Below, in pieces: positions 13,246-29,719 of a DNA stretch of 64,000 bases. The stretch is from assembly GCF_035918235.1 (NCBI RefSeq), contig NZ_CP109485.1, positions 7,851,001-7,915,000 on the forward strand. The letters run 5' to 3'. Origin of the DNA: Streptomyces sp. NBC_01445 (lineage in GTDB: Bacteria; Actinomycetota; Actinomycetes; Streptomycetales; Streptomycetaceae). How positions within the stretch are numbered: the first letter of the stretch is position 1; every line of letters starts with the position of its first letter. The position numbers and the translations under genes are program-made. The notes under the pieces are model-generated. The model was not told where the DNA came from. It saw only the letters and a program-made list of their open reading frames with translations, and did no database searches.

Positions 13246-14475
13246 ATGCATGCCTGGCCCGCTTCTGAGGTCCCCGTCCTGCCTGGCAAGGGCCGCGACC
13301 TGAGGATCCACGACACCGCGACCGATGGCCTCGTCACCCTCGAGCCCGGTCCCGTCGCCCGTATCTACGTCTGCGGGATCACCCCGTACGACGCGACCCA
13401 TATGGGTCACGCGGCGACCTACAACGCGTTCGACCTCGTTCAGCGCGTGTGGCTCGACACCAAGCGGCAGGTTCATTACGTCCAGAACGTGACGGACGTC
13501 GACGATCCGCTGCTCGAGCGCGCGATCCGTGACGGCGTCGACTGGACCGGACTCGCAGAGCGCGAGACCGCCCTCTTCCGCGAGGACATGACCGCCCTGC
13601 GGATGCTGCCGCCGCAGCACTACATCGGAGCCGTCGAGGCGATACCCGGCATCGTGCCGCTCGTCGAACGGCTCCGGGACATGGGCGCCGCCTACGAACT
13701 CGAGGGCGACGTCTACTTCTCCGTCGAGTCCGACCCCCACTTCGGCCAGGTCTCCCGCCTGGACGCCGCGGCGATGCGGCTGCTGTCCGCCGAGCGCGGC
13801 GGCGACCCGGACCGCCCGGGCAAGAAGAACCCGCTCGACCCGATGCTGTGGATGGCCGCCCGCGAGGGCGAGCCCAGCTGGGACGGCGGCTCGCTGGGCC
13901 AGGGGCGTCCCGGCTGGCACATCGAATGTGTCGCCATCGCCCTCGACCACCTCGGCATGGGCTTCGACGTCCAGGGCGGAGGGTCCGATCTGGCCTTTCC
14001 GCACCACGAGATGGGCGCCTCGCACGCGCAGGTGCTCACCGGCGAGTTCCCGATGGCCAAGGCGTACGTCCACGCCGGCATGGTCGCGCTCGACGGCGAG
14101 AAGATGTCCAAGTCCAAGGGCAACCTCGTCTTCGTCTCGAAGCTGCGACGCGACGGGACCGACCCGGCCGCGATCCGCCTCGCGCTCCTCGCGCACCACT
14201 ACCGGGCCGACTGGGAGTGGACCGACCAGGTCCTGAGCGACGCTGTCGAGCGGCTTGGCCGGTGGCGTGCCGCCGTCTCCCGGCCCGACGGACCGTCCGC
14301 CGCGGCGCTCGTCGAGGAGATCCGCGAAGCGCTGTCGAGCGACCTCGACGCACCGGCGGCGCTGCTCGCCGTGGACCGCTGGGCCGCCCTTCAGGCGGAG
14401 CAGGGCGGTACGGACGAGGGGGCGCCCGGCGTGGTGTCCCGCGCGGTCGACGCCCTGCTCGGAGTGGCGCTCTAG
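13246..14475 (+). CDS. mshC: L-cysteine:1D-myo-inositol 2-amino-2-deoxy-alpha-D-glucopyranoside ligase
   Basis: MshC makes the cysteine-glucosamine-inositol amide of mycothiol with ATP; it is the penultimate mycothiol step, in the cytosol. The protein has 409 residues and a cysteinyl-tRNA-synthetase-like catalytic core: [16 protein letters not shown] with zinc ligand C43 and the HIGH-type HMGH, a zinc-ligand cysteine in WHIECVA, HHEMG, and KMSKSKGN for ATP. The short C-terminal domain, without a tRNA anticodon-binding region, and the starting [14 protein letters not shown] separate it from true CysS. The neighbouring MSMEG_4193/DUF3090/SCO1664 genes match the usual mshC context. A strong hairpin follows. 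Confidence 0.95.
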
Positions 14476-15860: not shown

Positions 15861-16532
15861 TCAGAGTGTCGAGCGCAGCCACTGCTCCACGCTCGCGATG
15901 TGCACCGTCGCCCACGACCGGGCCGCCTCCGCGTCACCGTCGCGCAGCGCCGCCAGGATCGCCCGGTGCTCGTGCAGGGTCCGGCTGACCGCGTCCTCCT
16001 GCGTCAGGCCACGCCAGACGCGGGCCCGGGTCGTCGGGCCGGACAGGCCGTCGAGGAGCGAGCACAGGACCGAGTTGCCCGAGCTCTGCACGATGCCGCG
16101 GTGGAACTCCAGGTCGGAGGCGACGAGTTCCTCCACCGAGGGCGCGGGGCCGAGCGCGTCCAGCTGGGCCGCGAGCGCGTCGAGCCGCGCCTCGTCGATC
16201 CGGGTCGCGGCCATCGCGGTCGCGGCCGGCTCCAGGATGCGGCGCACCGCGAGGAATTCGAGGACGGTGTCGTCGCGGTGGAAGTCGACGACGAAACTCA
16301 GGGCTTCGAGGAGGAGTTGGGGGTCGAGGCTCGTGACGTACGTCCCGTCGCCCTGCCGCACGTCGAGGATGCGGATGAGGGACAGGGCGCGGACGGCCTC
16401 GCGCAGGGAGTTGCGGGAGAGGCCGAGGTCGGCGGCGAGTTCGCTCTCCTTCGGGAGGCGGTCGCCCGGGCGCAGGGCGCCGGAGACGATCATGCCTTTG
16501 ATCTTCTCGATGGCCTCGTCGGTGACGGCCAT
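15861..16532 (-). CDS. FadR/FCD-type GntR family transcriptional regulator
   Basis: A 223-residue regulator. The N-terminal winged HTH reads GALRPGDRLPKESELAADLGLSRNSLREAVRAL, followed by the wing GDGTYV (about residues 1-68). The C-terminal all-helical FCD effector domain has metal-ligand-type positions in SDLEFHRGIVQSSGN and LHEHRAIL. GGGAGG lies 6 bases before the ATG at 16532. It sits directly downstream of the Rieske operon on the same strand, with its own promoter holding the palindrome CCGATGTATCGG. An identical 11-mer in the operon/importer promoter suggests it represses both itself and the pathway until it binds a substrate or intermediate. Confidence 0.85.
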   Translation of the reverse strand: MAVTDEAIEKIKGMIVSGALRPGDRLPKESELAADLGLSRNSLREAVRALSLIRILDVRQGDGTYVTSLDPQLLLEALSFVVDFHRDDTVLEFLAVRRILEPAATAMAATRIDEARLDALAAQLDALGPAPSVEELVASDLEFHRGIVQSSGNSVLCSLLDGLSGPTTRARVWRGLTQEDAVSRTLHEHRAILAALRDGDAEAARSWATVHIASVEQWLRSTL

Positions 16533-16554
16533 GGCGGCCTCCCTGTCCTCGGTT

Positions 16555-16596
16555 GGAGCGCCACCGTCTGGAGCGCCAATACCTCCGATGTATCGG
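16555..16596 (-). promoter_or_regulatory. Promoter region of FCD regulator with direct repeat and palindrome
   Basis: Two direct GGAGCGCCA copies (16555-16563 and 16570-16578) are followed by the perfect palindrome CCGATGTATCGG (16585-16596), 53 bases before the start codon. TCCGATGTATC (16584-16594) recurs exactly at 26851-26861, so this is the predicted operator of the adjacent regulator. Confidence 0.55.
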
Positions 16597-16668
16597 CCCA
16601 TTATGTGGGTAGTGAGGGGGTGCGCGGTGCCGGTGCCGGCGTACTCGTACCGGCACCGCGCCCGGACG

Positions 16669-17697
16669 TCAGCCCGCGGCGCCCGCCTGGGCCTGCGCGG
16701 CCGCCCGGTACATGCGGCGCAGGCGCACCACGCCCAGGTCGTGCTGGTAGAGGTTCTCGCGCTGGTCGGCGTCCGCCGGCATGGCCTCCAGCATCACGCG
16801 GTCCTGTTCGAGCACCTCCCAGTGGCGCTCCTCGATGAGGGTCTTGTAGAGGAAGCGCCAGGTGTCGCGCTGCCAGCCCTCGACCCGGCGGTAGCGCCAG
16901 AAGAAGACACCGCAGCGCTGCTCGTCGACCGGGCAGACCATGCCGACGATCCCGAACGGGCCGCCGGGACCGGCCGACGGCGGGTACGGAATCGACAGGT
17001 CGACCCAGTCGATGCCGGTGTGGCACAGCTCGACCCAGTCGAAGTTGACGCCCCGCTGGTCGGTCTTCTCGAAGAAGTAGCCCCGGTCGGTCTCCCGGAT
17101 GCGGAACTTGGCGGTGGTGTCACCGTCGTACATGGTGTGCGAGTCGTGGTGCAGGAAGGCGCCGTGCATCGGGTCGAGGAGGTTCTCGACGGCGTAGCGC
17201 CACGGCACCTCCCACTCCGCGTAGCACAGGATCGCGTCGGTGCCGGGGTCGGTGAGCGGCTCGGGGAGCGTCAACTCGGCCGATTCCGGGTGCTGTTCGT
17301 CGCCGAAGTAGGCGAGGATCGCACCGCCGACCTCGCGCACGGGCAGCGACCTGACGAGCTTCTTGCCCTCCAGGTTGCAGCCGGGCAGGCCGGGCACCGA
17401 GGAGACGGTGCCGTCCCCCTCGACCTCGACGCCGTGGTACCAGCACGCCACCCGGTCGCCGAGGTGTTTGCCGAGCGACAGGGGCGCGCCGCGGTGCGGG
17501 CAGCGGTCCGCGAGCATGGACAGCGTGCCGTCGGAGCGGCGGAACAGGAGCCACTGCTCGCCGAGCGCGGTCACCTTGCGCATGGCGCCGGGCGCGACGA
17601 ACGAGGACGGCACGACGGGGTGCCACTGGTTGCGCAGGCCCGTCGCATAGATGTGATCGGCGGTGGAAGCTGCCGAAGCGGTCGTCGTGGCGGTCAT
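16669..17697 (-). CDS. Rieske non-heme iron aromatic oxygenase, alpha-type subunit
   Basis: A 342-residue oxygenase that hydroxylates or demethylates an aromatic ring using O2 and electrons from a partner reductase. The [2Fe-2S] Rieske site is C66-x-H68 (CPHRG) and C85-x2-H88 (CWYHG). The mononuclear iron site is D175-x2-H178-x4-H183 in ENLLDPMHGAFLHH. The length and lack of a beta-subunit gene fit the VanA/OxoO/CarAa-type single-subunit oxygenases. It ends an operon with the 74-residue gene 4 bases upstream and the VanB-type reductase before that. The substrate is not predictable from sequence alone. Confidence 0.88.
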   Translation of the reverse strand: MTATTTASAASTADHIYATGLRNQWHPVVPSSFVAPGAMRKVTALGEQWLLFRRSDGTLSMLADRCPHRGAPLSLGKHLGDRVACWYHGVEVEGDGTVSSVPGLPGCNLEGKKLVRSLPVREVGGAILAYFGDEQHPESAELTLPEPLTDPGTDAILCYAEWEVPWRYAVENLLDPMHGAFLHHDSHTMYDGDTTAKFRIRETDRGYFFEKTDQRGVNFDWVELCHTGIDWVDLSIPYPPSAGPGGPFGIVGMVCPVDEQRCGVFFWRYRRVEGWQRDTWRFLYKTLIEERHWEVLEQDRVMLEAMPADADQRENLYQHDLGVVRLRRMYRAAAQAQAGAAG

Positions 17698-17701
17698 CAG
17701 G

Positions 17702-17926
17702 TCACGCTCCCAGTCGGTGCATCTCGGCGCGGAACGAGTCCTCGGTCCACGGGGCGCCGTCGGGGGCGTGGACCTGACGGGCGTTCAGCCCGCGGATGAC
17801 ATCAGCGAGTTCGTGGCCGTCCTTGGTGAAGACCTCTTCGAGGGTGGCGGCCAGCTTGTACTCGTAGGGGGTGGGTTCGTGCGTACGGGACTGGTGGACG
17901 TCCAGGTACGGCCAGGTGGTGGTCAC
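17702..17926 (-). CDS. Small conserved protein of the Rieske operon, function unknown
   Basis: A 74-residue protein starting with GTG at 17926 (GGAGG 5 bases upstream). It begins TTTWPYLDVHQSRTHEPTPYEYKLA, followed by a helical stretch with VFTKDGHELADVIRGLN and a segment GAPWTEDSFRAEMHRLGA. The last part reads like the recognition-helix region of a recombinase/resolvase-type helix-turn-helix, but the protein is too short for a catalytic domain. No cysteines, signal peptide or membrane helix are seen. Its tight placement between reductase and oxygenase suggests an accessory or small subunit-like role with the oxygenase; this is inference. Confidence 0.7.
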   Translation of the reverse strand: MTTTWPYLDVHQSRTHEPTPYEYKLAATLEEVFTKDGHELADVIRGLNARQVHAPDGAPWTEDSFRAEMHRLGA

Positions 17927-17946
17927 ACGTGCCTCCAGGGAAGGGG

Positions 17947-18891
17947 TTACAGGTCGAGGGCCAGGCGGCCGGAGGCGCAGCGCGAGACGCAGATCATCAT
18001 CGAGGCGCCCGCGGCCCGCTCGGCATCGGAGAGCAGGAAGTCGCGGTGGTCGGGCGTGCCGTCGAGCACCCGGGTCTCGCAGGACCCGCAGATCCCGTCG
18101 CGGCAGGAGCTGGCCACATCCAGGCCCGCCGCCTCCGCCGCCTCCAGGATCGAGGTATCCGCGCCGACCGTGAGGGTGAGCCCGGAGGCGCGGCACTCGA
18201 CCTCGAAGCCCTCGTCGTCCGCGGAGCGCTCGACGACCGGGGCCGCGAACCGCTCGACGCGCAGCCGGTCCGCCGGGCAGAGGGCCTCGATGGCGGCGAG
18301 CAGCGGCTCGGGCCCGCAGCAGTAGACGAGCGTCCCGTCCGGCAGCCCGTCGAGAGTGGACGCGAGGTCGATGTGGCCCTGCTCGTCCTGCGGCACCACC
18401 GTCAGATCGCCGCCCAGCGCGGCGAGTTCGTCGACGAACGCCATCGACGCACGGCTGCGACCGCCGTACACCATGCGCCACGCGGCACCCCGGCGCGCGG
18501 CCTCGCGGGCCATCGCGAGGATCGGCGTCACACCGATGCCGCCCGCGACGAAGACGTAGCCCGGCGCGTCCTGAAGCGCGAAGTGGTTGCGCGGCGCCGA
18601 CACCGTGACCCGCCCGCCGGGGCGCAGCTTCGTGTGCACATGGCGCGAACCCCCGCGTGACGACGGTTCGTTGAGGACACCGATGCGGTACGACGTCGGG
18701 GTGCGCGGGTCTGAGCACAGGCTGTACTGGCGGACCTGCCCGCCCACGTGGACGTCGAGGTGCGCGCCGGGCTCCCACGCGGGCAGGGGCTTGCCGTCCG
18801 GGTGGGTCAGTTCGACGGACAGGACGCCGTCGGCCTCCCAGGTCATGCGGTGTACGAGGAGGTCCAGGAGGGTCTCGTCGGTTGCGGTCAT
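17947..18891 (-). CDS. PDR/VanB family oxidoreductase (Rieske oxygenase reductase)
   Basis: A 314-residue electron-transfer protein in the phthalate dioxygenase reductase order: an FMN-binding barrel (RQYSLCSDP at residues 54-62), an NAD-binding domain with GGIGVTP (117-123) and CCGPEP (191-196), and a C-terminal plant-type [2Fe-2S] ferredoxin with C263, C268, C271 and C301. It passes electrons from NAD(P)H to the Rieske oxygenase encoded two genes downstream. The gap to the ThDP gene upstream is 15 bases, so it is part of the same transcript. Confidence 0.9.
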   Translation of the reverse strand: MTATDETLLDLLVHRMTWEADGVLSVELTHPDGKPLPAWEPGAHLDVHVGGQVRQYSLCSDPRTPTSYRIGVLNEPSSRGGSRHVHTKLRPGGRVTVSAPRNHFALQDAPGYVFVAGGIGVTPILAMAREAARRGAAWRMVYGGRSRASMAFVDELAALGGDLTVVPQDEQGHIDLASTLDGLPDGTLVYCCGPEPLLAAIEALCPADRLRVERFAAPVVERSADDEGFEVECRASGLTLTVGADTSILEAAEAAGLDVASSCRDGICGSCETRVLDGTPDHRDFLLSDAERAAGASMMICVSRCASGRLALDL

Positions 18892-18906
18892 GGCTGCGGG
18901 GCCTCC

Positions 18907-20535
18907 CTACGCGGTGGGGATCTTCACGGGCGGGGTGAACGGGTTCTTCATCGGGCCGAGCGACGCGAGGTCGACCTCGACGAGCGTCGGCCCCTCGGAG
19001 GCGACGGCCTCGGCGATGACGGGCTCCGCGTGCTCGGCGGCGGCGATCCGCAGATACGGCAACCCGCAGGCCCGGGCGAGGAGTTCGAAGTCGGGCGTGG
19101 CGAGGTCGACACCGGAGCGGCGGTCGCTGTGCCGGTCCTGCATGTTGCGCAGGACGCCGTAGCCGCCGTCGTTGAACACGAGGAGGGTCAGGCGCGGGCG
19201 CTCCTGGGCGAGGGTGAGCAGTTCGCCGAGGTGCACGGCCAGCCCGCCGTCACCGGCGATGACGACCGTGGGCGCGTCGGGCCTCGCGAGCGCGGCCCCG
19301 ATGCCCATGCCGAGGCCCTGCCCGATGCCGCCGCCGCGCGGGAAGACGTTGTCGCGCGGGTCGTACATGTCGAGGAGCCGGTTGCCCCAGCTGCTGGACG
19401 GGATGGTGACGTCGCGGGCGACGACGGCCTCGCGTGGGAGCGCGTCCCGGATCGCGTCGCAGATGGCCGCCTGCGGGCCGATGTTGTCGTGCAGGGTGGC
19501 GCGCACGTCGTCGCGGACGGCGGTGACCCGCGCCGTCCAGCCCGGCTCGGCGGGCTTCGCGTACGGGAGGAGCCGTTCCAGTACGTCGGCGGCGTCGCCG
19601 TGGAGCGCGTGCCGGGCCGGGTACACGCGGCCGAGCGCGGCCGCGTCCAGGTCGATCTGGATGTGGGCGGCGGGGAGTTCGAGGCCGTAGTCGGCTGTCT
19701 CGTTGGACCGGAAGTGGGTGCCGATCGTGAGCAGCACGTCGGCGTCGGCGAGCAGGGCGCGCCCGGCCGGCGTCGTCGCGAAGTTGCCGACGACCTGCGG
19801 GTGGTCCTCGGGGACGGCGCCACGGCCGGAGTTCGACGTCAGGAGAGCGGCGCCGGTCGCGGCGAGCAGGTCCGCGAGCTGGGTACGGGCGCGCGTGGCA
19901 CCGCCACCGGCCCAGATCACCGGGCGCTCGGCCGAGGCCAGCAGGGCGCCCGCGGCGGCGAGTTCGTCGTCACCCGGCGCGGGCACGGCGGCCTCCGTGA
20001 ACTCCTCGACGGCGGTGTCGGTCTGGGCCGCGTACTGGAGGTCGACCGGCCACTCCACGCTCGCGGGGCCGCCCGGCGCGGTGAGCGCGGCGCGGGCCGC
20101 CTCGCGCAGGACGCGGCCCGCCGCGTCGGCGGACGGCACGGTCGCGGCGTACTTGGAGACCGCCGTCAGCATGCCCAGCTGGTCCTTGGTCTCGTGGATG
20201 AAACCGCGCCCGCTGCCCAGGAACTCCGACTCGACCTGCCCGGTGATGTGCAGGACGGACGTGCCGGACGCCAGCGACTCGATCAGGGAGCCGGCCGCGT
20301 TGCCCGCGCCCGTCCCGGTCGAGGTGAGGGCGCAGCCGAGCGTGCCGCGGGCCCTGCCGTAGGCGTCGGCCGCGTTGACGGCGGACGCCTCGTGGCGCAC
20401 GGGCACGAACCGCAGCTCGCGGTCGACGGCCTCGACGAGCGGCAGGTTGTGCACGCTGACGATCCCGAAGACCGTGTCGATGCCCAGTTCCCGCAGAACG
20501 GCGACGAGGAGATCGCCTCCGGTGTCGTAACGCAT
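18907..20535 (-). CDS. Thiamine-diphosphate-dependent enzyme (acetolactate synthase/decarboxylase-like)
   Basis: A 542-residue ThDP enzyme with three-domain POX architecture. The catalytic glutamate is E49 in VRHEASAVNAADAYG; the ThDP/Mg motif is GDGGLAVHLGE leading to the asparagine of VFNDGGYGVLRN. GAGGAG lies 5-6 bases before the ATG at 20535; longer upstream in-frame starts run into the preceding SDR. Family members decarboxylate or ligate 2-oxo acids. In this operon it may process a 2-oxo acid or aldehyde produced by ring cleavage. Assignment as acetolactate synthase itself is unlikely because there is no regulatory subunit and no biosynthetic context. Confidence 0.82.
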   Translation of the reverse strand: MRYDTGGDLLVAVLRELGIDTVFGIVSVHNLPLVEAVDRELRFVPVRHEASAVNAADAYGRARGTLGCALTSTGTGAGNAAGSLIESLASGTSVLHITGQVESEFLGSGRGFIHETKDQLGMLTAVSKYAATVPSADAAGRVLREAARAALTAPGGPASVEWPVDLQYAAQTDTAVEEFTEAAVPAPGDDELAAAGALLASAERPVIWAGGGATRARTQLADLLAATGAALLTSNSGRGAVPEDHPQVVGNFATTPAGRALLADADVLLTIGTHFRSNETADYGLELPAAHIQIDLDAAALGRVYPARHALHGDAADVLERLLPYAKPAEPGWTARVTAVRDDVRATLHDNIGPQAAICDAIRDALPREAVVARDVTIPSSSWGNRLLDMYDPRDNVFPRGGGIGQGLGMGIGAALARPDAPTVVIAGDGGLAVHLGELLTLAQERPRLTLLVFNDGGYGVLRNMQDRHSDRRSGVDLATPDFELLARACGLPYLRIAAAEHAEPVIAEAVASEGPTLVEVDLASLGPMKNPFTPPVKIPTA

Positions 20536-20545
20536 GGTGGTCTCC

Positions 20546-21328
20546 TCAGAGGATGGAGCGGCCGACTCCGCCGCAGACGTCGATGCTGGTTCCGGTGATG
20601 TACGAGGCACGCGGCGAGAGCAGCGCGACGATCGCGTACGCGACCTCCTCGGCCCGGCCGAGCCGGCCGAGCGCGATCCCGCGGTCGGCGGCGAGCTCCG
20701 CCTGCCAGTCCTCGTAGGAGAGCCCGGACTCCGCGGCGGCGTGCCGGCGGGTCCACTGGCCCGTGTCGACGAGGCCGAGGCAGACCGAGTTGACGCGGAT
20801 CCCCTCGGGGGCGAGCTCGGTGGCGAGGGACTTGGAGAGGTTGAGGATGCCCGCGCGGGCGGCGCTCGTCGTGATCAGCCGGGTCTCGGGCTGCTTGGCG
20901 AGGACGGCGTTGACGTTCACGACGGACGCGGCGTCCGAGGCGGCGAGGTGTGGGCGGGCGGCGTGCAGCGGGTTGAGGACGCCGGAGAACTTCAGCTCCA
21001 GCTCGTCGCGCCAGTCGTCGGCGGTCGACTCGTCGAGGCTCTTCATGCGGGACTGGCCCGCGTTGTTGACGAGCCCGTCGAGGCCCCCGAAGGTGTCGGC
21101 GGCATGCCGGACGAAGCCCTGTACGGCCGTCGCGTCCCGCACGTCGCAGACGCCGGTCAGGAGGCGGTCGCTGCCGAGGCGCGCCGCCGCCTTCGCGAGG
21201 CGGTCGGCGTCACGGCCACAGGTCGCGACGCGCGCGCCCTCGTCGAGCAGGGCGCGGACCGTGGCCAGGCCGACGCCCGAGCTGCCGCCGGTGACCAGGA
21301 CGGTCCGGTCGGCGAGGCCCAGATCCAT
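20546..21328 (-). CDS. Short-chain dehydrogenase/reductase with non-canonical active site
   Basis: A 260-residue SDR. The cofactor motif VTGGSSGVG and the LVNNAGQ motif are intact. Where the family normally has Tyr-x3-Lys, this protein reads TTSAARAG, with Thr in place of Tyr and Arg in place of Lys; the following GILNLSKSLATELAP and the end YITGTSIDVCGG are typical. I recall an SDR subgroup carrying the TSAARAG motif, so this may be a subfamily feature. A changed mechanism or non-redox role is possible. It lies 10 bases upstream of the ThDP gene in the operon. Confidence 0.83.
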   Translation of the reverse strand: MDLGLADRTVLVTGGSSGVGLATVRALLDEGARVATCGRDADRLAKAAARLGSDRLLTGVCDVRDATAVQGFVRHAADTFGGLDGLVNNAGQSRMKSLDESTADDWRDELELKFSGVLNPLHAARPHLAASDAASVVNVNAVLAKQPETRLITTSAARAGILNLSKSLATELAPEGIRVNSVCLGLVDTGQWTRRHAAAESGLSYEDWQAELAADRGIALGRLGRAEEVAYAIVALLSPRASYITGTSIDVCGGVGRSIL

Positions 21329-21347
21329 GATTGTGCACTCCTGTGGG

Positions 21348-22109
21348 TCAGTTCATCGTGAAGCCGCCGTTGACGGCGATCACTTGTCCGGTGAGATAGC
21401 GGGACTCCTCGCCGAGCAGGAAGGCGACGAGACCGATGAGGTCGCCGGGCTCCTGCGGCCGCGAGATGGCCCGGCCCGAGCGGTAAAGCTCGTGCCGTTC
21501 CTCGGGCACGGTCTCGGTGGCCTCGCACTCGGTGAGGCCGGGCGCCACCGCGTTGACGGTGATGCCCTTGTCGCCGAGCTCCCTGGCCATCGCCCGGGTC
21601 AGCGCGATGACCGCGCCCTTCGAGGCGATGTAGTGGGCGAGGCGGGGCGAGCCGTAGAGCGCGGCGTCCGACGCGACGTTCACGATCCGGCCCGGCGAGC
21701 CGAAGAGCGGGTACAGGGCCTTGGACACCAGCCAGGGGCTGCGGGCGTTGACCGTCATCAGGCGGTCCCACACCTCGACGTCGATGTCCTGGAACTCCTT
21801 GCCGCCGACGCCGTTGGCGAGAGCCGCGTTGTTGATCAGGCCGTACAGCGGACCCAGTTCCCGTACGCGAACGGCGAGTTCGTCGACCGACTCGGGGTCG
21901 GCCACGTCGCAGCGCACGAAGTGGGCGTCGAGTCCGTCACCACGCAGTTCCTCGGCCGCGTGGGTCCCGCGCTCGGTGTCGAGCTCGGCGACCACGACGC
22001 GGAAGCCGTCCTCGGCCGCCCGGCGGGCCATGGCCAGTCCCAGGCCACGGCCCGCCCCGGTGACGACGACGGTGCCGGCGCCCCCTGAGGGGTCAGTCAC
22101 GGGTGACAC
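21348..22109 (-). CDS. Short-chain dehydrogenase/reductase
   Basis: A 253-residue classical SDR with VVTGAGRGLGLAMA for NAD(P), LINNAAL, the catalytic Ser-Tyr-Lys set (VNVASDAALYGSPRLAHYIASKGAV) and C-terminal YLTGQVIAVNGG. It would oxidise or reduce a hydroxy/keto intermediate, for example a dihydrodiol or side-chain alcohol. The start may be GTG at 22109 or 22100; both overlap or nearly touch the cupin stop at 22093, showing translational coupling. Unlike the neighbouring SDR its catalytic residues are complete. Confidence 0.86.
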   Translation of the reverse strand: MSPVTDPSGGAGTVVVTGAGRGLGLAMARRAAEDGFRVVVAELDTERGTHAAEELRGDGLDAHFVRCDVADPESVDELAVRVRELGPLYGLINNAALANGVGGKEFQDIDVEVWDRLMTVNARSPWLVSKALYPLFGSPGRIVNVASDAALYGSPRLAHYIASKGAVIALTRAMARELGDKGITVNAVAPGLTECEATETVPEERHELYRSGRAISRPQEPGDLIGLVAFLLGEESRYLTGQVIAVNGGFTMN

Positions 22110-22614
22110 CGTGCATCGGCGAGTGCTCCGGGTACGTCGGGACCTGCGGCTTCTGCGTGCCGATGACGACGCAGAACAGGGCGTCGGTGTCGCCCTCGTT
22201 CTTCAGGGACCGGGCCACGCCCGCCGGGACGACGATCATGTCGCGGTAGCCGAGGGTGCGGTACTCGACCTCGTCGGCGCCGCGGTGGATACCCACGCGG
22301 ACCTGGCCCTCCAGGACGAAGAAGGCCTCCTCGACGTCGTGGTGGGTGTGCTCGGGGCCCTCGGCGCCGGGCGGGAGCAGCATGTTGGAGAAGGTGAAGC
22401 CGCCGGACGGGAGGATCCGGGAGTCGTTCTCGTGGTTGCCGGTGGCGCCGGAGCCGACGTAGCGGATCTGGCCGCGGCGGTACTGCGGGCCCGCCTTCTC
22501 CTGGAAGGAGAGCGTGTTGAAGTCCGCGACACGGGACTCCTTGGTGGCGATGAGCGAGTCGGTGTACTTGCCGAGGTCGCTGCCGTTGTCGTAGTCGGTG
22601 GTGGTCAGAGGCAT
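22093..22614 (-). CDS. Cupin-domain protein
   Basis: A 173-residue single-cupin protein. Motif 1 is GAEGPEHTHHDVEEAFFVLEG, with the His-x-His and Glu metal ligands; motif 2 is GYRDMIVVPAGVARSLKNEG, in which the usual His is absent. It could be a metal-dependent isomerase, dioxygenase or ligand-binding protein; the partly altered motif 2 makes a catalytic role less sure. It lies 10 bases from the hydrolase gene upstream and overlaps the SDR start downstream, so it belongs to the catabolic operon. Confidence 0.8.
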   Translation of the reverse strand: MPLTTTDYDNGSDLGKYTDSLIATKESRVADFNTLSFQEKAGPQYRRGQIRYVGSGATGNHENDSRILPSGGFTFSNMLLPPGAEGPEHTHHDVEEAFFVLEGQVRVGIHRGADEVEYRTLGYRDMIVVPAGVARSLKNEGDTDALFCVVIGTQKPQVPTYPEHSPMHGVTRD

Positions 22615-22624
22615 GGCTGGACTC

Positions 22625-23404
22625 CTACTCGGGGATGCGGGCGGTGATGCGGAGGTGGGACAGGACCCAGGCGTCGAAGCGCGCGGGCTGTTCCTGGTTG
22701 GCCAGGTGACCGGCGTCCTTGACGATCACGTAGGCGGTCTTGTGAAGGGCGCCGGCGAGGACCTGAGAGGCCTCGACGCCGGTGACCTGGTCCTGGTCGC
22801 CGCACAGGACGAGGGTGGGCGCGGCGATCTCGGGCAGTTCGGGCCGCAGGTCGGCCGAGGCCATGGACTCGGCGGCGTAGGCGTAGCCGGGCAGCCGCAC
22901 GGACGAGGCCATGGTGTCGACGACGCGCTGTACGAGTTCCTCGGGCGCCCCGCCGGACACGAGCCGCGGCCCGCGCTTCTCGGCGAAGGCGCGCGGTCCG
23001 AGCTCGGCCAGCTCGGCGGCCCGCGCCCGCATGCCCTCGGCCTTGGCGGGGTCGGTGCCGGAGCCCGCGCTGGAGTCGGCGACGACGAGGGACTCGACCA
23101 GATCCGGGTGGCGGGCCGCGAGCCGCAGCGCGATCACCCCGCCCCAGGAGACACCGAGGACGTGCGCGCGTCCGCCGCGCTCCCGGATGACCTCGGCCGC
23201 CGCGTCCGCGAACCCGTCCAGGTCCAACGGCCCTTCAGGATCCGGCGACTTGGCGTAGCCGGGCGCGTCCCAGGCCACGACCCGCGCGTACGCGGACAGC
23301 TCGGCGAGCTGCGGGGCGAACGCCGCCGACGAGGAGCCGATGCCGTGCAGGCACAGCAGCAGGGGGCCGTGGTCGCCCGCCTCCTCGACATGGACGGCGC
23401 TCAC
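22625..23404 (-). CDS. Alpha/beta hydrolase, meta-cleavage-product-hydrolase-like
   Basis: A 259-residue alpha/beta-fold hydrolase. The oxyanion region is LCLHGIGSS, the nucleophile elbow GVSWGG, the acid LCGDQDQVTG and the catalytic histidine DAGHLANQEQP. Size and motif layout match C-C bond hydrolases of the meta-cleavage pathways, and an extradiol dioxygenase is encoded two genes upstream. It could instead be an esterase or enol-lactonase. Its start codon overlaps the stop of the aspartate-dehydrogenase-like gene by 4 bases. Confidence 0.85.
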   Translation of the reverse strand: MSAVHVEEAGDHGPLLLCLHGIGSSSAAFAPQLAELSAYARVVAWDAPGYAKSPDPEGPLDLDGFADAAAEVIRERGGRAHVLGVSWGGVIALRLAARHPDLVESLVVADSSAGSGTDPAKAEGMRARAAELAELGPRAFAEKRGPRLVSGGAPEELVQRVVDTMASSVRLPGYAYAAESMASADLRPELPEIAAPTLVLCGDQDQVTGVEASQVLAGALHKTAYVIVKDAGHLANQEQPARFDAWVLSHLRITARIPE

Positions 23405-24198
23405 AGGATCTGGCCCGTCCGCCCGGCCAGCGCCGCCAGGCTGCGCAGCACCGCGTACGGCACGACCTGGCTGGTCGCGGGGTTGCCCGGGTCCGGCAGG
23501 TGCGCGACGTCGAAGCGGTACGCGCCGTGCGCGCCGGACGCCTCGACGACGTGCCGCGTGTGGCGGGCGCCGGGGTCGGCGACGACCCGGACCCGCACAG
23601 CGTCCAGGTCGCCGACGGCGAGGGCGACCGAGGCGGCCACGTTCGTCGACTTGGGGAACTTCACGGGGATGTCGCGCGCCGTGCCGGACATGACCTCGAC
23701 GGGCCCGGTCGCCGTCCGCAGCCTGGACAGCAACTCCTCGTCCATCCAGGGCTGTTCGAGGGTGGACGGCAGCTTGGTGGTGGTGAGCCGCACCTCGTCG
23801 AGGGGGCCGAGGGAGCGCACCGCCTGGAGAAGGTCGAGGCCGCCGACCGCGCCGCCGGTGAAGTAGACCCGGCCGGGGCCCGCCGCGAGCAGCCGCTTGG
23901 ACAGCTCGTCGTCGGTCAGCGCCCCGGTCGACGCGACGAGCAGATCGGTGCCGGAGGCGAGGACCCGCTCACCCCATTCCCGTACGACACCCTGCCCGGC
24001 CGCCTCGACGATGAGGTCGCAGCACTCCAGGGCCTCGTCGAAGGTCCGCTGGGGCGCGGGCGCCGTGTCGCCGAGGGGGCGGTTGTCGATGATGCACGTC
24101 AACTCGGCGCCGGGAACCTGCTGTTCGGCGAGTGCGGTGCCGACGACGCGACCGATCGCGCCCCAGCCGACGAGGCCGACCTTGCGTACCGTGCTCAT
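23401..24198 (-). CDS. Aspartate-dehydrogenase-like (NadX family) oxidoreductase
   Basis: A 265-residue protein with an N-terminal Rossmann domain (VGLVGWGAIGRVVG) and the C-terminal DUF108 domain typical of L-aspartate dehydrogenase, including FPKSTNVAASVALA and DPGARHTRHVVEASG. True NadX feeds NAD synthesis, but here the gene is locked in a catabolic operon by four-base overlaps on both sides (ATGA at 24195-24198 and 23401-23404). It may therefore act on an amine/imine or other carbonyl intermediate. GGAGG lies 7 bases before the ATG. Substrate unknown. Confidence 0.82.
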   Translation of the reverse strand: MSTVRKVGLVGWGAIGRVVGTALAEQQVPGAELTCIIDNRPLGDTAPAPQRTFDEALECCDLIVEAAGQGVVREWGERVLASGTDLLVASTGALTDDELSKRLLAAGPGRVYFTGGAVGGLDLLQAVRSLGPLDEVRLTTTKLPSTLEQPWMDEELLSRLRTATGPVEVMSGTARDIPVKFPKSTNVAASVALAVGDLDAVRVRVVADPGARHTRHVVEASGAHGAYRFDVAHLPDPGNPATSQVVPYAVLRSLAALAGRTGQIL

Positions 24199-25139
24199 GC
24201 GGGGACCTCCTGGGAGACGGATGTGTGCGGGCCGGGGTCCGGGGAGCCGGCCATGTGACAGCGGATCTCCTTCGACGGCGGGCCCGCCGTGCCCCACAGG
24301 TCGGACAGCTCGGGCACGCGCCGCCACACCCGCGCGATCCAGGCGTCCTCGACGATCTGCGCGACCTCGGACGTGTACTCGCACACGAGGCCGGACGGGT
24401 CGGTGAAGTAGGAGAAGGTGTTGTTGCCGGGGCCGTGGCGGCCCGGGCCCCACTGCGGGTCGATGCCGTGGTGCTTGAGCCGGCCGAGCCCCCGCATGAA
24501 GTGGTCGACCGAACTCATCTCGTACGCCACGTGGTTGAGGGAAGCCCACTCGGCCTGGTTGAACGCGATGCAGTGGTGGTCGGCGTTGCAGCGCAGGAAC
24601 GCCATCTGGTGCTCGGACCAGTCGGAGACGCGCAGGCCGAGGACGTCGCAGTAGAACGCGACGGAGGCGTCGATGTCGGCGGTGTTCAGGACGGCGTGTG
24701 TGACGCCGACGGGTACGGCGGCGTCCCTGCCGCGCGGCGCGACCGCCTCCACCTGCGCGCTGATCTCCACGAGCCGCTGCTCGGGGTCGGTGAAGCGCAG
24801 GCCGTAGCCGCCGCCCACCTGGTCGAGCGGTCCGGGGCCGAAGACCGGGGCGATCCCGCGGGCCTCCAGACGCCGGGCCGCCTCGTCGACCTCGGCGGGC
24901 GTGGCGACGGCGAACGCGAGCCGGCCGAGCCCCGTGCGGTCCGCGCGGGTGAGGTGCAGGACGTGGTGCTCCTCGCCGGTGCCGCGCAGCCAGGCCGCCG
25001 CGCCGCGCTCCGCCTCGACGGTCCGCAGGCCCCAGACCTCCTCGTAGAAGTCGGCGGCCTCGGTGAAGGCGGGGGTGAGCAGCTCGACGTAGCGCAGGGA
25101 GCGCAGGCGGGCGACGGGTCCTGGCGATGGGTGGGGCAT
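24195..25139 (-). CDS. Type I extradiol ring-cleavage dioxygenase (VOC family)
   Basis: A 314-residue two-domain vicinal-oxygen-chelate protein. The C-terminal catalytic domain has the three Fe(II) ligands H148 (GVTHAVLN), H203 (LNHVAYE) and E254 (LVCEYTSE), together with the conserved HHGIDPQWGPGRHGPGNN region that holds second-shell residues. The N-terminal domain (about 15-130) is the non-catalytic repeat. This is the layout of catechol 2,3-dioxygenase and related enzymes, which open a catechol ring next to one hydroxyl. It is the ring-opening step of this operon. The substrate could be a substituted catechol or a bicyclic catechol. Confidence 0.87.
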   Translation of the reverse strand: MPHPSPGPVARLRSLRYVELLTPAFTEAADFYEEVWGLRTVEAERGAAAWLRGTGEEHHVLHLTRADRTGLGRLAFAVATPAEVDEAARRLEARGIAPVFGPGPLDQVGGGYGLRFTDPEQRLVEISAQVEAVAPRGRDAAVPVGVTHAVLNTADIDASVAFYCDVLGLRVSDWSEHQMAFLRCNADHHCIAFNQAEWASLNHVAYEMSSVDHFMRGLGRLKHHGIDPQWGPGRHGPGNNTFSYFTDPSGLVCEYTSEVAQIVEDAWIARVWRRVPELSDLWGTAGPPSKEIRCHMAGSPDPGPHTSVSQEVPA

Positions 25140-25163
25140 GAGTGTCTCCAGACGACGGGGCGG

Positions 25164-26648
25164 TCAGTTGGCCCAGGGCAGGGGCGCGTCCGAAGTGCCC
25201 CAGTACAGGGACTTCTGGCGCTGGTAGGCGCGGATGGCGTCGCGGCCCTTCTCCGTACCGAGACCGCTGTCCTTCATCCCGCTGAACGGGGTGGACGCGC
25301 TGAACTGCTTGTACGTGTTGATCCAGACCGTCCCCGCCTCGATCCGGCGGGCCAGGCGCCACGCGGCCCGGTGGTCACGGGTCCAGATCCCGCAGGCGAG
25401 CCCGTAGACGGAGTCGTTGGCCTGGCGGACCAGGTCGTCCTCGTCGTCGTAGGGCAGGGCGACCAGGACGGGTCCGAAGATCTCCTCCTGGCAGGTCCGT
25501 GAGGTGTTGGGGAGCCCGTCGAGGACGGTGGGCAGGTAGTACGCGCCGTCCCGGTACGTGTCGCCCTCGGGCGCCCGGCCGCCGCACAGCACCCGGGCGC
25601 CCTCGGAGCGGGCCAGATCGACATAGGCGGCGACGGAGTCCCGGTGCCGGTGGTGGACCAGCGGCCCGACCTGGGTTCCGGGGTCCGTGCCGGGACCGAC
25701 GCGCAACTTGCTCACCCGCTCGACGAGTTCGCCGACGAAGCTGTCGTAGATCTCGCGTGCCACGAAGAGCCGCGAACCCGCGATGCACGACTGGCCGCTG
25801 GACGAGAAGATCCCGAACATCACGCCCGCCAGTGCCTGCTCGACGTCCGCGTCCGCGCGCACGATCGTCGGCGACTTGCCGCCGAGTTCGAGGGAGGCGG
25901 GGATCAGCTTCGAGGCCGCCACGGCCGCGATGGACCGGCCGGTCTCCGTGCCGCCGGTGAAGCCGATCCTGGTCACCAGGGGGTGGTGCACGATCGCGTC
26001 CCCGACGACCCGGCCGCTGCCGGGCAGGACCGACAGCAGGGCGGTCGGCAGTCCGAGTTCGCCGAGCGCCTGGTGGATCAGGCGCCCGAGCGCGAGGGAG
26101 ACCAGCGGGGTCCAGGCGGCGGGCTTCAGCAGGACGGCGTTGCCGCCGGCGAGGGCGGGCGCGATCTTCTGCGCGTCGCTGGCGACCGGCGAGTTCCAGG
26201 GGTTGATCGCGCCCACGACGCCGATCGGCTCGTACACGCTCATCGTCACGTACGGGCCGCGGGACGGGGTGAGGGTCTCCTCGGCCGTCTCCAGGGCCGC
26301 CGCCATGTACCGGAAGGTGCCGGCCGCGCTGAGCGCGAGGGCCTTCGTCTCGGTGAGGGTCTTGCCGGTGTCGGCGGTCTGGAGGGCCGCGAGCTCGCCG
26401 GCGGCCTCCTCGGTCAACTCCGCGATCCGGTACAGGAGTCGGGCCCGCTGGTGGGGGAGGAGATCGCGCCAGGCCGGGTCGGCCACGGCGCGCGCGGCGG
26501 CCCGAGCGGCTTCGTCGACCTCGTCGGCGGACGCGGAGTGGACGGTGGCGAGCACCTCTCCGGTCGCCGGGTCGACGGTCTCGACCGCCTCGCCCGCGCC
26601 GCGTCGCCACTGGCCCGCGATCAGGATGTCGGTGGGGTGGTGAGGCAC
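25164..26648 (-). CDS. NAD-dependent aldehyde dehydrogenase (semialdehyde dehydrogenase type)
   Basis: A 494-residue ALDH. The cofactor region is INPWNSPVASDAQKIAPALA, the general base is in LELGGKSP, the catalytic cysteine is in SSGQSCIAGSR, and the C-terminal PFSGMKDSGLG is typical. The GTG at 26648 has GGAGG 8 bases upstream and starts the protein at PHHPTDILIAGQW; an in-frame GTG at 26714 lacks a good site. Similarity is to hydroxymuconic semialdehyde/betaine-aldehyde-type dehydrogenases, fitting oxidation of the ring-cleavage aldehyde. It is the first gene of the minus-strand catabolic operon. Confidence 0.87.
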   Translation of the reverse strand: MPHHPTDILIAGQWRRGAGEAVETVDPATGEVLATVHSASADEVDEAARAAARAVADPAWRDLLPHQRARLLYRIAELTEEAAGELAALQTADTGKTLTETKALALSAAGTFRYMAAALETAEETLTPSRGPYVTMSVYEPIGVVGAINPWNSPVASDAQKIAPALAGGNAVLLKPAAWTPLVSLALGRLIHQALGELGLPTALLSVLPGSGRVVGDAIVHHPLVTRIGFTGGTETGRSIAAVAASKLIPASLELGGKSPTIVRADADVEQALAGVMFGIFSSSGQSCIAGSRLFVAREIYDSFVGELVERVSKLRVGPGTDPGTQVGPLVHHRHRDSVAAYVDLARSEGARVLCGGRAPEGDTYRDGAYYLPTVLDGLPNTSRTCQEEIFGPVLVALPYDDEDDLVRQANDSVYGLACGIWTRDHRAAWRLARRIEAGTVWINTYKQFSASTPFSGMKDSGLGTEKGRDAIRAYQRQKSLYWGTSDAPLPWAN

Positions 26649-26947
26649 GGGCGGGACCTCCAGGCGGTCTACGGCCAACGGGTACGGGGGAGTTGGGCTC
26701 ACCGAGGCGCTCACTCACGTTGGTTGCGCCTACCGGCTTGCTCAGTGCTAGAAATCTAAGCGCTTAAGTATTTTCCCGCAAGACCCTGCGGCGAAGTCGT
26801 CGCGCGACGGTGTCCGAGGTGGGTTACGTAAGGGTGACGGTGAGGTCACTTCCGATGTATCTAAGCCATTAATCATTGACCCCTTAGATAAGTCCTCTTA
26901 GTGTCTGCGCAACTCCTCTGTTCGCGTTGTCGCGGAAGGACCCCCTC
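26649..26947. promoter_or_regulatory. Divergent control region of the catabolic operon and the MFS importer
   Basis: An AT-rich gap between divergent genes. It holds the palindrome TAAGCGCTTA (26757-26766, inside AATCTAAGCGC), the 11-mer TCCGATGTATC (26851-26861) shared with the FCD-regulator promoter, and a perfect 8-bp inverted repeat TATCTAAG (26858-26865) / CTTAGATA (26883-26890). AATCATT and TTAGATA in it recur with one base different spacing before the molybdenum hydroxylase genes. These are probably overlapping operators and core promoters. Confidence 0.6.
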
Positions 26948-28312
26948 ATGACGACTGTGGCCGGCAAGTCAGGCCTCGGCTCGATAGCAGCCCGACTCGA
27001 ACGACTCCCGCAATCCCGCTGGCACGTGAAGGTCCGGTTCCTGATCGGCGCCGTGACGTTCTTCGAGGCGTTCGACCAGCTCCTTGCCGCGTCCGCGCTG
27101 CCCGTCCTGATCAAGGACTGGCACCTGAGCACGGGCCAGGCCACCTTCGCGGTGACCACGGGCTCCGTCGGCATGCTGCTGGGCGCCCTGGTCGCCGGGT
27201 GGCTGGGCGACCGGATCGGCCGGGTGCGGACCGTGGCCCTCGGTGTCGCCGTCACCGCGCTCGGGAGCCTCGCCGTGGCCTTCTCGAACGGCATCGAGCT
27301 CTTCTCGCTCTTCCGCTTCGTCCAGGGTCTCGGCATCGGCGGAGTCGTCCCCGTGGCGGCCACGTACATCAACGAGATCGCCCGCTCCGACAAGCGCGGG
27401 CGCTTCGTACTGATCTACGAGATGATCTTCCCGGCCGGTCTGGCCGCGGCCACCCTCGTCGCCGTGTGGGTGGTGCCGAACCTCGGCTGGCGCGCGATGT
27501 TCGTGATCGGCGCCCTGCCCGTCCTGCTCGCCGCCGCCCTGCCCAAGCACGTCGCCGAATCACCGCGGTGGCTGCTCTCCCAGGGCCGCACCGAGGAGGC
27601 CGAGCGGGCCATCGCACGGATCGAGGAGGAGGTCGCCGCCGCCACCGGGGAACCCCTGCCGCAACCGGCCGCGGACCGGGCGGAGGAGACCTCCCGGGGC
27701 CGCCTGCGCGAGCTGTTCACCGGCCGCTACCTGCGCCGCACGACCGTGGTCTCCGGGCTCTGGTTCGTCGCGTACTACGTCAACCACGGCATCTCCACCT
27801 GGCTGCCGTCGCTCTACACCAAGAACTTCGGGCTCGACCTGACCACCGCGCTCGTCTACACGCTGCTCAGCAATGTGACGGGACTCCTCGGCACCCTCGC
27901 CGTCGCCCTCGTCATCGACCGCGTGGGCCGGCGCCCCGCCCTCGTGGCCGCACTCGGCGGCACCACCTTCACCCTCGCGACGCTCGCCCTGGTCGGCGTG
28001 ACATCGGGCAGCCAGGTCGCGATCTTCGCCTCCTGCACGACGTTCTTCGTGTACGCGATCAACGCGGGCCTCTACCTCTACTCGCCCGAGCTGTACCCGA
28101 CGCGCAACCGCGCCAAGGGCGCCGCGTTCGGCGGCCTCTGGAACCGCCTCGGCGTCATCCTGGGCCCGATCACGGTCGGCGCGATCATCGGCGGGGGCGG
28201 CAGCCTGACCCTTGTCTTCGCCCAGCTCGCCGGGGTGGCCGCGGTGGGTGCGGTGATCGCGCTGTTCGCGGTGGAGACGAAGGGGAAGACGCTGGAGGAG
28301 CTCAACTCCTGA
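26948..28312 (+). CDS. MFS transporter (aromatic acid/metabolite:H+ symporter-like)
   Basis: A 454-residue 12-helix permease. The TM1 segment holds FFEAFDQLLAASALPVL with an acidic residue, loop 2-3 the MFS signature GDRIGRVRT, and loop 8-9 a second copy IDRVGRRPAL. The central loop is charged. The ATG at 26948 with GAAGGA 7 bases upstream is chosen over an upstream in-frame TTG. Being divergent from the catabolic operon across a shared operator region, it most likely imports the pathway's aromatic acid or related substrate in symport with protons. Confidence 0.87.
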   Translation: MTTVAGKSGLGSIAARLERLPQSRWHVKVRFLIGAVTFFEAFDQLLAASALPVLIKDWHLSTGQATFAVTTGSVGMLLGALVAGWLGDRIGRVRTVALGVAVTALGSLAVAFSNGIELFSLFRFVQGLGIGGVVPVAATYINEIARSDKRGRFVLIYEMIFPAGLAAATLVAVWVVPNLGWRAMFVIGALPVLLAAALPKHVAESPRWLLSQGRTEEAERAIARIEEEVAAATGEPLPQPAADRAEETSRGRLRELFTGRYLRRTTVVSGLWFVAYYVNHGISTWLPSLYTKNFGLDLTTALVYTLLSNVTGLLGTLAVALVIDRVGRRPALVAALGGTTFTLATLALVGVTSGSQVAIFASCTTFFVYAINAGLYLYSPELYPTRNRAKGAAFGGLWNRLGVILGPITVGAIIGGGGSLTLVFAQLAGVAAVGAVIALFAVETKGKTLEELNS

Positions 28313-28383: not shown

Positions 28384-28431
28384 GCCGTGCGGGCTCAGCC
28401 CTGTTCCGCCGTGCGGGCTCAGCCTTGTCCC
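28384..28431. repeat. 24-bp tandem duplication at the 3' end of the TetR-MarR gene
   Basis: Two 24-base copies (28384-28407 and 28408-28431) that differ at only a few final bases. The copy at 28408-28431 contains the stop codon of the fusion regulator; the other lies just beyond it. As 24 is a multiple of three, the duplication left the reading phase unchanged and only repeats the C-terminal codons outside the gene. Confidence 0.7.
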
Positions 28432-29549: not shown

Positions 29550-29560
29550 GTGCCTCAGAT

Positions 29561-29711: not shown

Positions 29712-29719
29712 AAAATGGC

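Follow-up and report, generated by a model that had tools for sequence, protein, structure and literature searches.

The biochemistry closest to that predicted for a putative eleven-gene operon of Streptomyces sp. NBC_01445, at positions 16669 to 26648 of the 64-kb stretch of DNA analyzed here (the window; contig NZ_CP109485.1), is the kynurenate (quinoline) pathway of tryptophan breakdown, reportedly worked out in Pseudomonas by Hayaishi, Taniuchi and co-workers in the 1960s. This pathway proceeds through a 7,8-dihydrodiol and 7,8-dihydroxykynurenate, followed by 8,8a-cleavage, reduction, decarboxylation to a formylethyl compound and oxidation to a carboxyethyl compound; decarboxylation and subsequent aldehyde oxidation after extradiol cleavage are distinctive of it. 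A 1963 paper by Taniuchi and Hayaishi appears among the references of PMC5610271. We know of no genes for this route, and to our knowledge it has never been established how the dihydroxypicolinate ring is opened. The protein families encoded by the operon suit each of these activities, from the NAD(P)H-dependent dihydroxylation to the release of nitrogen. Because its steps need this set of enzymes, the kynurenate pathway is the best fit that we found. Judged from the sequence, the operon appears to be complete and would serve the catabolism of a nitrogen-containing, carboxylated and probably bicyclic aromatic acid, most likely kynurenate (4-hydroxyquinoline-2-carboxylate), an assignment in which we have moderate confidence. 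That the genes constitute a conserved pathway for some nitrogen-containing aromatic acid is highly probable. The preliminary description of this DNA had proposed a possibly undescribed route; the chemistry may have been described already, with the genes still unassigned.

The classical meta-cleavage pathways (xyl, bph, mhp, hpa) share with the operon hydroxylation by a Rieske or flavin enzyme, extradiol cleavage, an HpaE-like aldehyde dehydrogenase and a hydrolase. The operon differs in that a thiamine diphosphate (ThDP) enzyme, an aspartate-dehydrogenase-like protein (AspDH), a cupin and a PF20552 protein take the place of the 2-hydroxypentadienoate hydratase/aldolase tail. Hydratase, aldolase and acylating acetaldehyde dehydrogenase are absent from the eleven genes and from eight scanned neighbors, and the textbook pathways were rejected. 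Thus, the view that this is not a textbook meta-cleavage set holds, also across related loci, in which the ThDP enzyme is conserved and AspDH is found in 69 of 79 full sets. Catabolism of vitamin B6 and of nicotinate involves flavin monooxygenases related to one that accompanies some of the clusters (see below), as well as an alpha/beta hydrolase that acts on an enamide (3kxp). However, the gene sets differ, and the likeness is limited to single enzymes. With the VanAB vanillate O-demethylase, the operon shares the domain architecture of a VanA-type oxygenase plus a VanB reductase.

The Lum pathway for riboflavin and lumichrome, as far as the accessible parts of its descriptions go, likewise employs a Rieske oxygenase, an extradiol dioxygenase and a ThDP decarboxylase on an N-heterocycle (PMC12746152, PMC12752717). 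Its own components, as given there, are an alpha/beta Rieske oxygenase (LumC/LumD), the small ThDP subunits LumK and LumL, a P450, a molybdenum hydroxylase and pyrimidine hydrolases, none of which is among the eleven genes of the operon, and the accessible main text does not mention an aspartate dehydrogenase. The operon, in contrast, encodes a single VanA-like oxygenase and one full-length ThDP enzyme, with no P450 among the scanned genes. The Lum pathway, with its different gene set, was therefore rejected, and no close match of the whole cluster to a characterized pathway emerged.

The operon and its recurrence

Gene calls and profile scans against Pfam and NCBIfam, from which the product identities were taken, confirmed the preliminary list of eleven genes, their order and their tight or overlapping arrangement. 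All genes are on the minus strand and are transcribed from 26648 to 16669 as follows:

25164 to 26648, minus strand: ALDH, aldehyde dehydrogenase (PF00171, 532 bits)
24195 to 25139, minus strand: VOC, two-domain type I extradiol dioxygenase (PF00903)
23401 to 24198, minus strand: AspDH, NadX/aspartate-dehydrogenase-like protein (PF01958 and PF03447)
22625 to 23404, minus strand: ABH, PcaD-like alpha/beta hydrolase (PF00561)
22093 to 22614, minus strand: single-domain cupin (PF07883)
21348 to 22109, minus strand: SDR1, canonical short-chain dehydrogenase/reductase (SDR) with complete catalytic residues
20546 to 21328, minus strand: SDR2, SDR of the NF005468/PRK07062 family (354 bits, cut-off 266)
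18907 to 20535, minus strand: ThDP enzyme of the NF005470/PRK07064 family (PF02776, PF00205 and PF02775; 702 bits, cut-off 495)
17947 to 18891, minus strand: VanB-type FAD/2Fe-2S reductase (PF00175 and PF00111)
17702 to 17926, minus strand: 74-residue PF20552 "recombinase-like HTH" protein (112 bits)
16669 to 17697, minus strand: VanA-like Rieske non-haem iron oxygenase (PF00355 and VanA_C)

The successive intergenic distances are 24, −4, −4, 10, −17, 19, 10, 15, 20 and 4 nt, that is, at most 24 nt, with three short overlaps; 136 nt then separate the Rieske gene, the last of the operon, from the gene of a GntR/FCD regulator. Most of the open reading frames (ORFs) in the operon were picked as genes by their codon-position GC (71% GC in the window), and the AspDH and 74-residue frames were located by hand inside longer ORFs. 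Starts were inspected alongside gene calling; the ALDH gene begins with GTG at 26648, preceded by a GGAGG box, in a frame that is open as far as 26714. Curated NCBIfam cut-offs were passed by two products, SDR2 (NF005468) and the ThDP enzyme (NF005470), and the names of these two models have no function attached.

To assess the conservation of the gene set, we compared loci from two sources. Actinomycete loci came from a search of genomes with a Rieske alignment, of which the best 80 of 584 confirmed matches were used; 54 of these are from Streptomyces, so that actinomycetes are over-represented, and the others are from Rhodococcus, Gordonia, Nocardia, Tsukamurella, Corynebacterium, Geodermatophilus, Blastococcus, Aeromicrobium, Williamsia, Enemella and further genera. 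The proteobacterial loci are all from plasmid records. A search with the ThDP protein matched 29 such records (Acinetobacter, Caballeronia, Burkholderia, Klebsiella, Novosphingobium, Cupriavidus, Paracoccus, Vibrio and others), 19 of which were retrieved: 15 have the core complete, the record of Caballeronia M1242 ends within the cluster, two from Vibrio lack the Rieske module, and one from Variovorax (L101) holds the ThDP gene alone, without the rest of the cluster. The resulting table of 97 loci omits L101 and the second Vibrio strain (L131), and L014 was replaced by a longer version, L129. The locus counts given here are not independent events, as some strains or records may be closely related; Caballeronia NK8, for instance, contributes two loci.

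All nine core genes are present in 79 of the 97 loci, and several of the remaining 18 are cut by contig or flank ends. Identities of the best hits range from 26 to 65% in the proteobacterial loci and from 26 to 100% in the actinomycete loci, mostly well above 40%. Since homologs of all eleven genes recur together, a chance grouping is excluded, and the recurrence of the same set in 79 loci indicates a conserved pathway. Thus, the search for the same gene cluster that the preliminary description had proposed finds it in many actinomycetes and proteobacterial plasmid records and, as judged from sequence, the set is a pathway conserved across two phyla. Within Streptomyces, the Rieske gene was found in 31 of 199 genomes (E ≤ 1e-80), and the closest matches to the locus are from this genus, with the Rieske gene matching at 96% in a genome of the same species as G000. 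In a sample of 296 genomes from across the phylum, two had a PF20552 match above the family cut-off. The gene order is shuffled among lineages although the set is retained, and therefore the surviving neighbor pairs are informative: SDR2 and the ThDP gene are neighbors in 87 of 91 loci, as are ABH and the cupin gene in 75 of 89.

In Klebsiella, the cluster lies between speB and tkt (L012, 3911-16626; L130, 6912-19626). Because these two "plasmid" records hold chromosomal housekeeping genes, this cluster is probably chromosomal.

Proposed ring hydroxylation, ring cleavage and side-chain processing

In the pathway proposed here, the substrate, the intermediates and the order of the steps are deduced from the enzyme families. 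The Rieske oxygenase, together with the PF20552 protein and the VanB-type reductase, would convert kynurenate to its 7,8-cis-dihydrodiol, which SDR1 would oxidize to 7,8-dihydroxykynurenate. VOC would cleave the C8-C8a bond, yielding a 4,6-dihydroxypicolinate with a 3-carboxy-3-oxopropenyl side chain. SDR2 would reduce the side-chain C=C bond, the ThDP enzyme would decarboxylate the 2-oxo acid to leave a formylethyl group, and ALDH would oxidize the formylethyl to a carboxyethyl group. The cupin might then open the pyridone ring at its 1,3-dicarbonyl, ABH might split the resulting amide into a C5 acid (2-oxoglutarate or glutarate) and 2-iminosuccinate, and AspDH, or RidA in other genera, might take the imine to aspartate or oxaloacetate. 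These last three steps are the most speculative part of the proposal.

The residues expected of a Rieske oxygenase (C66, H68, C85, H88, D175, H178 and H183; residue roles here and below follow general knowledge of the families) are kept in 95 of 95 homologs, and with the adjacent VanB-type reductase this protein would form a ring-dihydroxylating system. No beta subunit of such an oxygenase is encoded in the cluster. In 93 of the 96 loci that have both genes, the PF20552 gene precedes the Rieske gene by no more than 200 bp; in the other three (Paracoccus, Nitratireductor and Pseudosulfitobacter) it is 2.6-2.8 kb upstream, with transporter genes in between. We propose that its product is an accessory protein of the Rieske system. 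A role as a DNA-binding recombinase was provisionally set aside: the structural model consists of three helices (pLDDT 87), and a search of PDB structures gave no match at E ≤ 0.001. The electron-transfer partner of the oxygenase is exchangeable: the VanB-type reductase of the window is replaced by a Rieske ferredoxin plus FAD reductase in Acinetobacter, Burkholderia, Klebsiella and most Caballeronia loci, and by an FAD reductase plus flavodoxin in Paracoccus, Nitratireductor and Pseudosulfitobacter. A protein of 110 residues is encoded near the Rieske gene in 10 loci (L129, 10742-11074; after the Rieske gene in L085-L094); it had no Pfam or NCBIfam match at E ≤ 0.001.

SDR1, the candidate dihydrodiol dehydrogenase, is catalytically complete (N121, S147, Y160 and K164 in 89 of 89) and tracks the Rieske gene in partial clusters. 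It immediately follows the Rieske gene in 13 of the 15 proteobacterial loci that have both genes and in none of the 75 other such loci. On the Vibrio nigripulchritudo plasmid L103 (8750-18322), the cupin, ABH, VOC, SDR2, ThDP, AspDH and ALDH genes are retained along with a TRAP transporter, and no Rieske, PF20552, SDR1 or reductase gene was found in the 25.6 kb fetched; a Rieske profile matched neither of the two Vibrio plasmids searched as a whole (0/2; the chromosomes were outside this search). The second Vibrio strain, L131, likewise carries the downstream module together with a flavin monooxygenase and a TRAP transporter, and its ThDP gene is annotated as two pieces. Conversely, the Nocardioidaceae locus L095 has the VanB, SDR1, PF20552 and Rieske genes, and no VOC, ThDP, ALDH or cupin gene was found within the 21 kb examined. 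Thus, the Rieske oxygenase, the PF20552 protein, the reductase and SDR1 appear to form a ring-hydroxylation unit, with the remaining genes acting on the catechol. Because the partial clusters separate the two modules in this way, SDR1 seems to belong to ring hydroxylation, as a cis-dihydrodiol dehydrogenase would, and its absence from Vibrio together with the Rieske gene speaks for ring dihydroxylation rather than demethylation of the VanAB type.

Downstream of the retained genes, L103 carries a flavin monooxygenase gene, with a frame change near its end in that assembly; a homolog also accompanies 14 of 96 other loci, one of them a weak match of 29%. Its best PDB match is 6-hydroxynicotinate 3-monooxygenase, with tropone 2-monooxygenase and vanillate 1-hydroxylase also matched, followed by salicylate hydroxylases. 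The simplest reading is that this enzyme supplies the same catechol from a phenolic compound related to the substrate; instead, it may act at a later step.

VOC carries the full residue set expected of type I extradiol dioxygenases: H148, H188, H189, H203, H235, Y244 and E254, among them the extradiol set H148, H203 and E254, are present in 82 of 82 homologs. It is 73% identical to P0105 of R. rhodochrous, which UniRef names 2,3-dihydroxybiphenyl 1,2-dioxygenase and which is 97.7% identical to the product of the VOC gene of cluster L072. Given this name, experiments may stand behind extradiol activity in the family, on a substrate that is not necessarily the natural one.

SDR2, the ThDP enzyme and ALDH, the candidates for the C=C reductase, the 2-oxo-acid decarboxylase and the aldehyde dehydrogenase, are all present and linked. 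The active site of SDR2 is non-canonical: the catalytic Tyr is replaced by Thr154 (88 of 90) and the Lys by Arg158 (89 of 90), with the exceptions at the Tyr position being L015 and L095, the latter a distant SDR with 35% identity. The closest solved relative, the SDR Q9HYA2 (presumably from P. aeruginosa), shares the stretch TSAARAG, and human peroxisomal trans-2-enoyl-CoA reductase has GAARAG at the same place, so that AARAG is common to it and SDR2. These features suggest that SDR2 is a C=C reductase, a role that fits its pairing with the ThDP gene. In the ThDP enzyme, H29, E49 and D429 are present in 89 of 89 homologs and N455 in 88 of 89; we propose that it is a 2-oxo-acid decarboxylase. 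ALDH is closest to HpaE/BADH (NCBIfam HpaE 458 bits, the cut-off of 638 not being reached), and its E254 and C288 are present in 78 of 78 homologs.

Probable release of nitrogen and candidate substrates

AspDH matches PF01958 (84 bits) and aligns with the L-aspartate dehydrogenases 1j5p and 2dc1, and its N186, D208 and H216 are present in 70 of 70 homologs. Thus, it has the NadX fold and the conserved C-terminal domain, yet all eight matched NCBIfam aspartate dehydrogenase models scored below their cut-offs, so that its aspartate dehydrogenase activity is putative. Among the 79 full sets, 62 contain AspDH only, seven AspDH and RidA, eight RidA only, and two neither. RidA is present in 8 of the 10 sets without AspDH versus 7 of the 69 with it (Fisher 9e-6, kinship uncorrected). 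Since each of the 46 full Streptomyces sets has AspDH only, the comparison was repeated outside this genus, giving 8 of 10 versus 7 of 23 (p = 0.02, likewise uncorrected for kinship). RidA proteins are enamine/imine deaminases, and aspartate dehydrogenases interconvert aspartate and oxaloacetate via iminosuccinate. That 77 of the 79 full sets carry AspDH and/or RidA points to a nitrogen-containing substrate, and the exchange of the two is explained most easily by the release of a C4 imine, as from a pyridine with a carboxylate beside the nitrogen. The preliminary statement that no substrate could be assigned can now be made more specific: nitrogen is indicated by the AspDH/RidA pattern, and the combination of ThDP enzyme, ALDH and ene-reductase matches the kynurenate route.

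The hydrolase had been described as C-C hydrolase-like. It is indeed an alpha/beta hydrolase, with G84-x-S86-x-G88 in 89 of 89 homologs and D205 and H233 in 87 of 89, but it is nearer to PcaD-type enol-lactonases (PcaDC 160 bits, PcaD 128 bits) than to the BphD type (34.5 bits), and it matches 3kxp with 59 bits. The cupin has an HxH...E metal-site motif with Arg in place of the expected fourth His. Its AlphaFold model (mean pLDDT 85) gave 866 Foldseek matches, the best of which include germin/oxalate oxidase, TM1459 and Ni-quercetinase; this likeness of a predicted structure to oxidase- and quercetinase-type cupins weakly backs a role in pyridone opening. Paracoccus, Nitratireductor and Pseudosulfitobacter have a two-domain relative of about 315 residues.

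Several observations weigh against kynurenate. Of the 32 genomes or records searched, only 10 encode tryptophan 2,3-dioxygenase (TDO), and the 11 plasmid records all lack it, so that its co-occurrence was discarded as support; the TDO gene of the host genome itself is 2.7 Mb away from the operon. No kynurenine gene was found among ten neighbor proteins scanned, which were chosen from recurrent families. Linkage to genes of tryptophan or kynurenine metabolism was thus not observed, although such linkage is not strictly defining because kynurenate can come from outside. A regulatory link was considered as well: the promoter motif TTAAGCNCTTAG (see below) occurs with at most one mismatch at two places in the genome, one of them 3.6 kb from the TDO gene. 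This link was rejected and the site is counted as coincidence, because it lies at the start of pyrE and none of the TTAAGCNCTTAG half-sites is present in the 400 bases upstream of the TDO start. Furthermore, SDR1 is not adjacent to the Rieske gene in the actinomycete loci, RidA is missing from all 46 full Streptomyces sets, two of the 79 sets have neither AspDH nor RidA, and the roles proposed for the cupin and ABH derive from chemical reasoning. The flavin monooxygenase by itself is no argument for a heterocycle because its best NCBIfam model, below the cut-off, is 3-hydroxybenzoate 6-monooxygenase. A literature search, mostly of titles and abstracts, found no paper on the cluster or one that assigns genes to kynurenate dihydroxylation.

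Among other substrates, a quinoline- or indole-type acid (quinaldate, xanthurenate or another hydroxyquinoline carboxylate) processed by the same reduce-decarboxylate-oxidize tail is a realistic, if rather unlikely, candidate. The evidence for nitrogen and for the tail applies to it equally, xanthurenate (8-hydroxykynurenate) would yield the identical catechol, and the occurrence of the flavin monooxygenase in place of the Rieske module in Vibrio, and beside that module in 14 other loci, suggests that an already hydroxylated relative is also used. However, we found no specific positive evidence for any one of these acids, and the biochemistry known to comprise these steps is that of kynurenate.

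Alternatively, the Rieske oxygenase and SDR1 could convert phenylalanine or a relative to 2,3-dihydroxyphenylalanine, which VOC would cleave; ABH would then release L-aspartate and 2-hydroxypentadienoate, AspDH would deaminate the aspartate, and SDR2, the ThDP enzyme and ALDH would process the C5 fragment. On chemical grounds, aspartate would be formed directly if a C-C hydrolase split this meta-cleavage product, and AspDH retains features of true aspartate dehydrogenases. We nevertheless consider this route improbable because the hydrolase is PcaD-like rather than BphD-like, replacement of AspDH by RidA makes little sense if aspartate is released free, and the scanned genes lack the hydratase/aldolase tail and leave the ThDP enzyme and SDR2 without a clear role. 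We also strongly doubt a lignin-type side-chain cleavage, in which the ThDP protein would be a benzaldehyde lyase-like carboligase/lyase, the Rieske protein a VanA-like O-demethylase and VOC the enzyme that cleaves the demethylated catechol, with AspDH and RidA being incidental. The VanA_C domain and the match of the ThDP enzyme to benzaldehyde lyase (129 bits) agree with this scheme, but BbmA and acetolactate synthases score higher against that enzyme, the joint absence of SDR1 and the Rieske gene in Vibrio is expected for dihydrodiol formation and not for demethylation, the nitrogen enzyme in 77 of 79 sets would be left unexplained, and SDR2 lacks the SDR catalytic pair. A biphenyl-type or promiscuous aromatic degradation operon, to which the name of P0105 and its identities to the VOC proteins of the window and of L072 might point, is very improbable given that the cluster has no beta subunit, the Rieske profile meets biphenyl dioxygenases over the Rieske domain only (21-27 bits), the hydrolase is not BphD-like, and the ThDP enzyme, AspDH and cupin have no place in the biphenyl pathway.

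Kynurenate degradation remains the preferred reading of the operon. Tentatively, the operon could represent the first gene set for the whole quinoline pathway, with dismantling of the ring by the cupin, ABH and AspDH or RidA, and with the PF20552 protein as a new accessory subunit of beta-less Rieske oxygenases. If so, enzyme activities from the 1960s that lack genes would gain sequences, a new way to dismantle the dihydroxypicolinate ring would be added, and a pathway that extends from soil actinomycetes to plasmid records from Acinetobacter, Klebsiella and Burkholderia would become predictable from genomes. Kynurenate, which derives from tryptophan, is both neuroactive and immunoactive, and its removal by bacteria, whether in soil or inside an animal host, could change its level. 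Even with another N-heteroaromatic acid as the substrate, this would be a widespread pathway with a modular logic of which no description turned up in the literature search.

A version of the cluster without the Rieske gene is presumably present at PA3504-PA3511 in P. aeruginosa; a literature search for these locus tags or A1S_0956 found nothing. The accessible part of one study lists A1S_0956-0958 (aspartate dehydrogenase, betaine-aldehyde dehydrogenase and acetolactate synthase) among genes raised with mucin, the tabulated values being about 2.2 to 2.4 (PMC5757984). Judged by their names and order, they appear to correspond to genes of the operon. According to the accessible part of another report, A. 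baumannii uses kynurenine by a different route, via kynureninase and anthranilate (PMC9162365).

Regulators and neighboring genes

Two flanking genes probably belong to the locus, and a candidate operator lies between the divergent MFS and ALDH genes:

15861 to 16532, minus strand: GntR/FCD regulator (PF00392 and PF07729; scanned as 15861-16601)
26927 to 28312, plus strand: divergent MFS transporter, aromatic acid/H+ symport-like (TIGR00895, 235 bits, below the cut-off of 419)
26756 to 26767, minus strand: candidate operator TTAAGCGCTTAG in the MFS/ALDH divergent promoter region

Judged by its family, the transporter is likely to function in uptake. The motif TTAAGCNCTTAG is found in 32 of 37 MFS/ALDH divergent promoter regions, that of the window included, and the window site is its sole perfect match in the host genome (11.47 Mb, two contigs). 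The region 26741-26890 contains two AT-rich elements as candidate operators: TTAAGC[GC]CTTAGA near ALDH, the element to which TTAAGCNCTTAG and its count of 32 of 37 refer, and an imperfect repeat near the MFS gene. Both are also present in L020, a locus in which the GntR gene was not found. This gene is present in five other loci (L016, L017, L019, L025 and L031), and its product is possibly a local regulator. A family of MarR-type regulators, in contrast, occurs in 53 loci; in L009 (12884-13423, 179 residues) its gene converges on that of the Rieske oxygenase. Members of this family may be the usual regulators, which the GntR protein would replace locally in the window.

Beside the MFS gene, the region 28419-32370 contains a 415-residue ORF that combines a TetR with a MarR domain, as well as genes for an XdhC-type maturation factor and for two molybdenum hydroxylase subunits (FAD and 2Fe-2S). 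A long ORF comes next, at 32277-34775. Molybdenum hydroxylases can hydroxylate N-heterocycles, although we found no evidence that ties this one to the operon. Near the other end of the operon lies an ordinary actinomycete gene, that of the mycothiol cysteine ligase MshC, at 13246-14475 (677 bits, cut-off 485).

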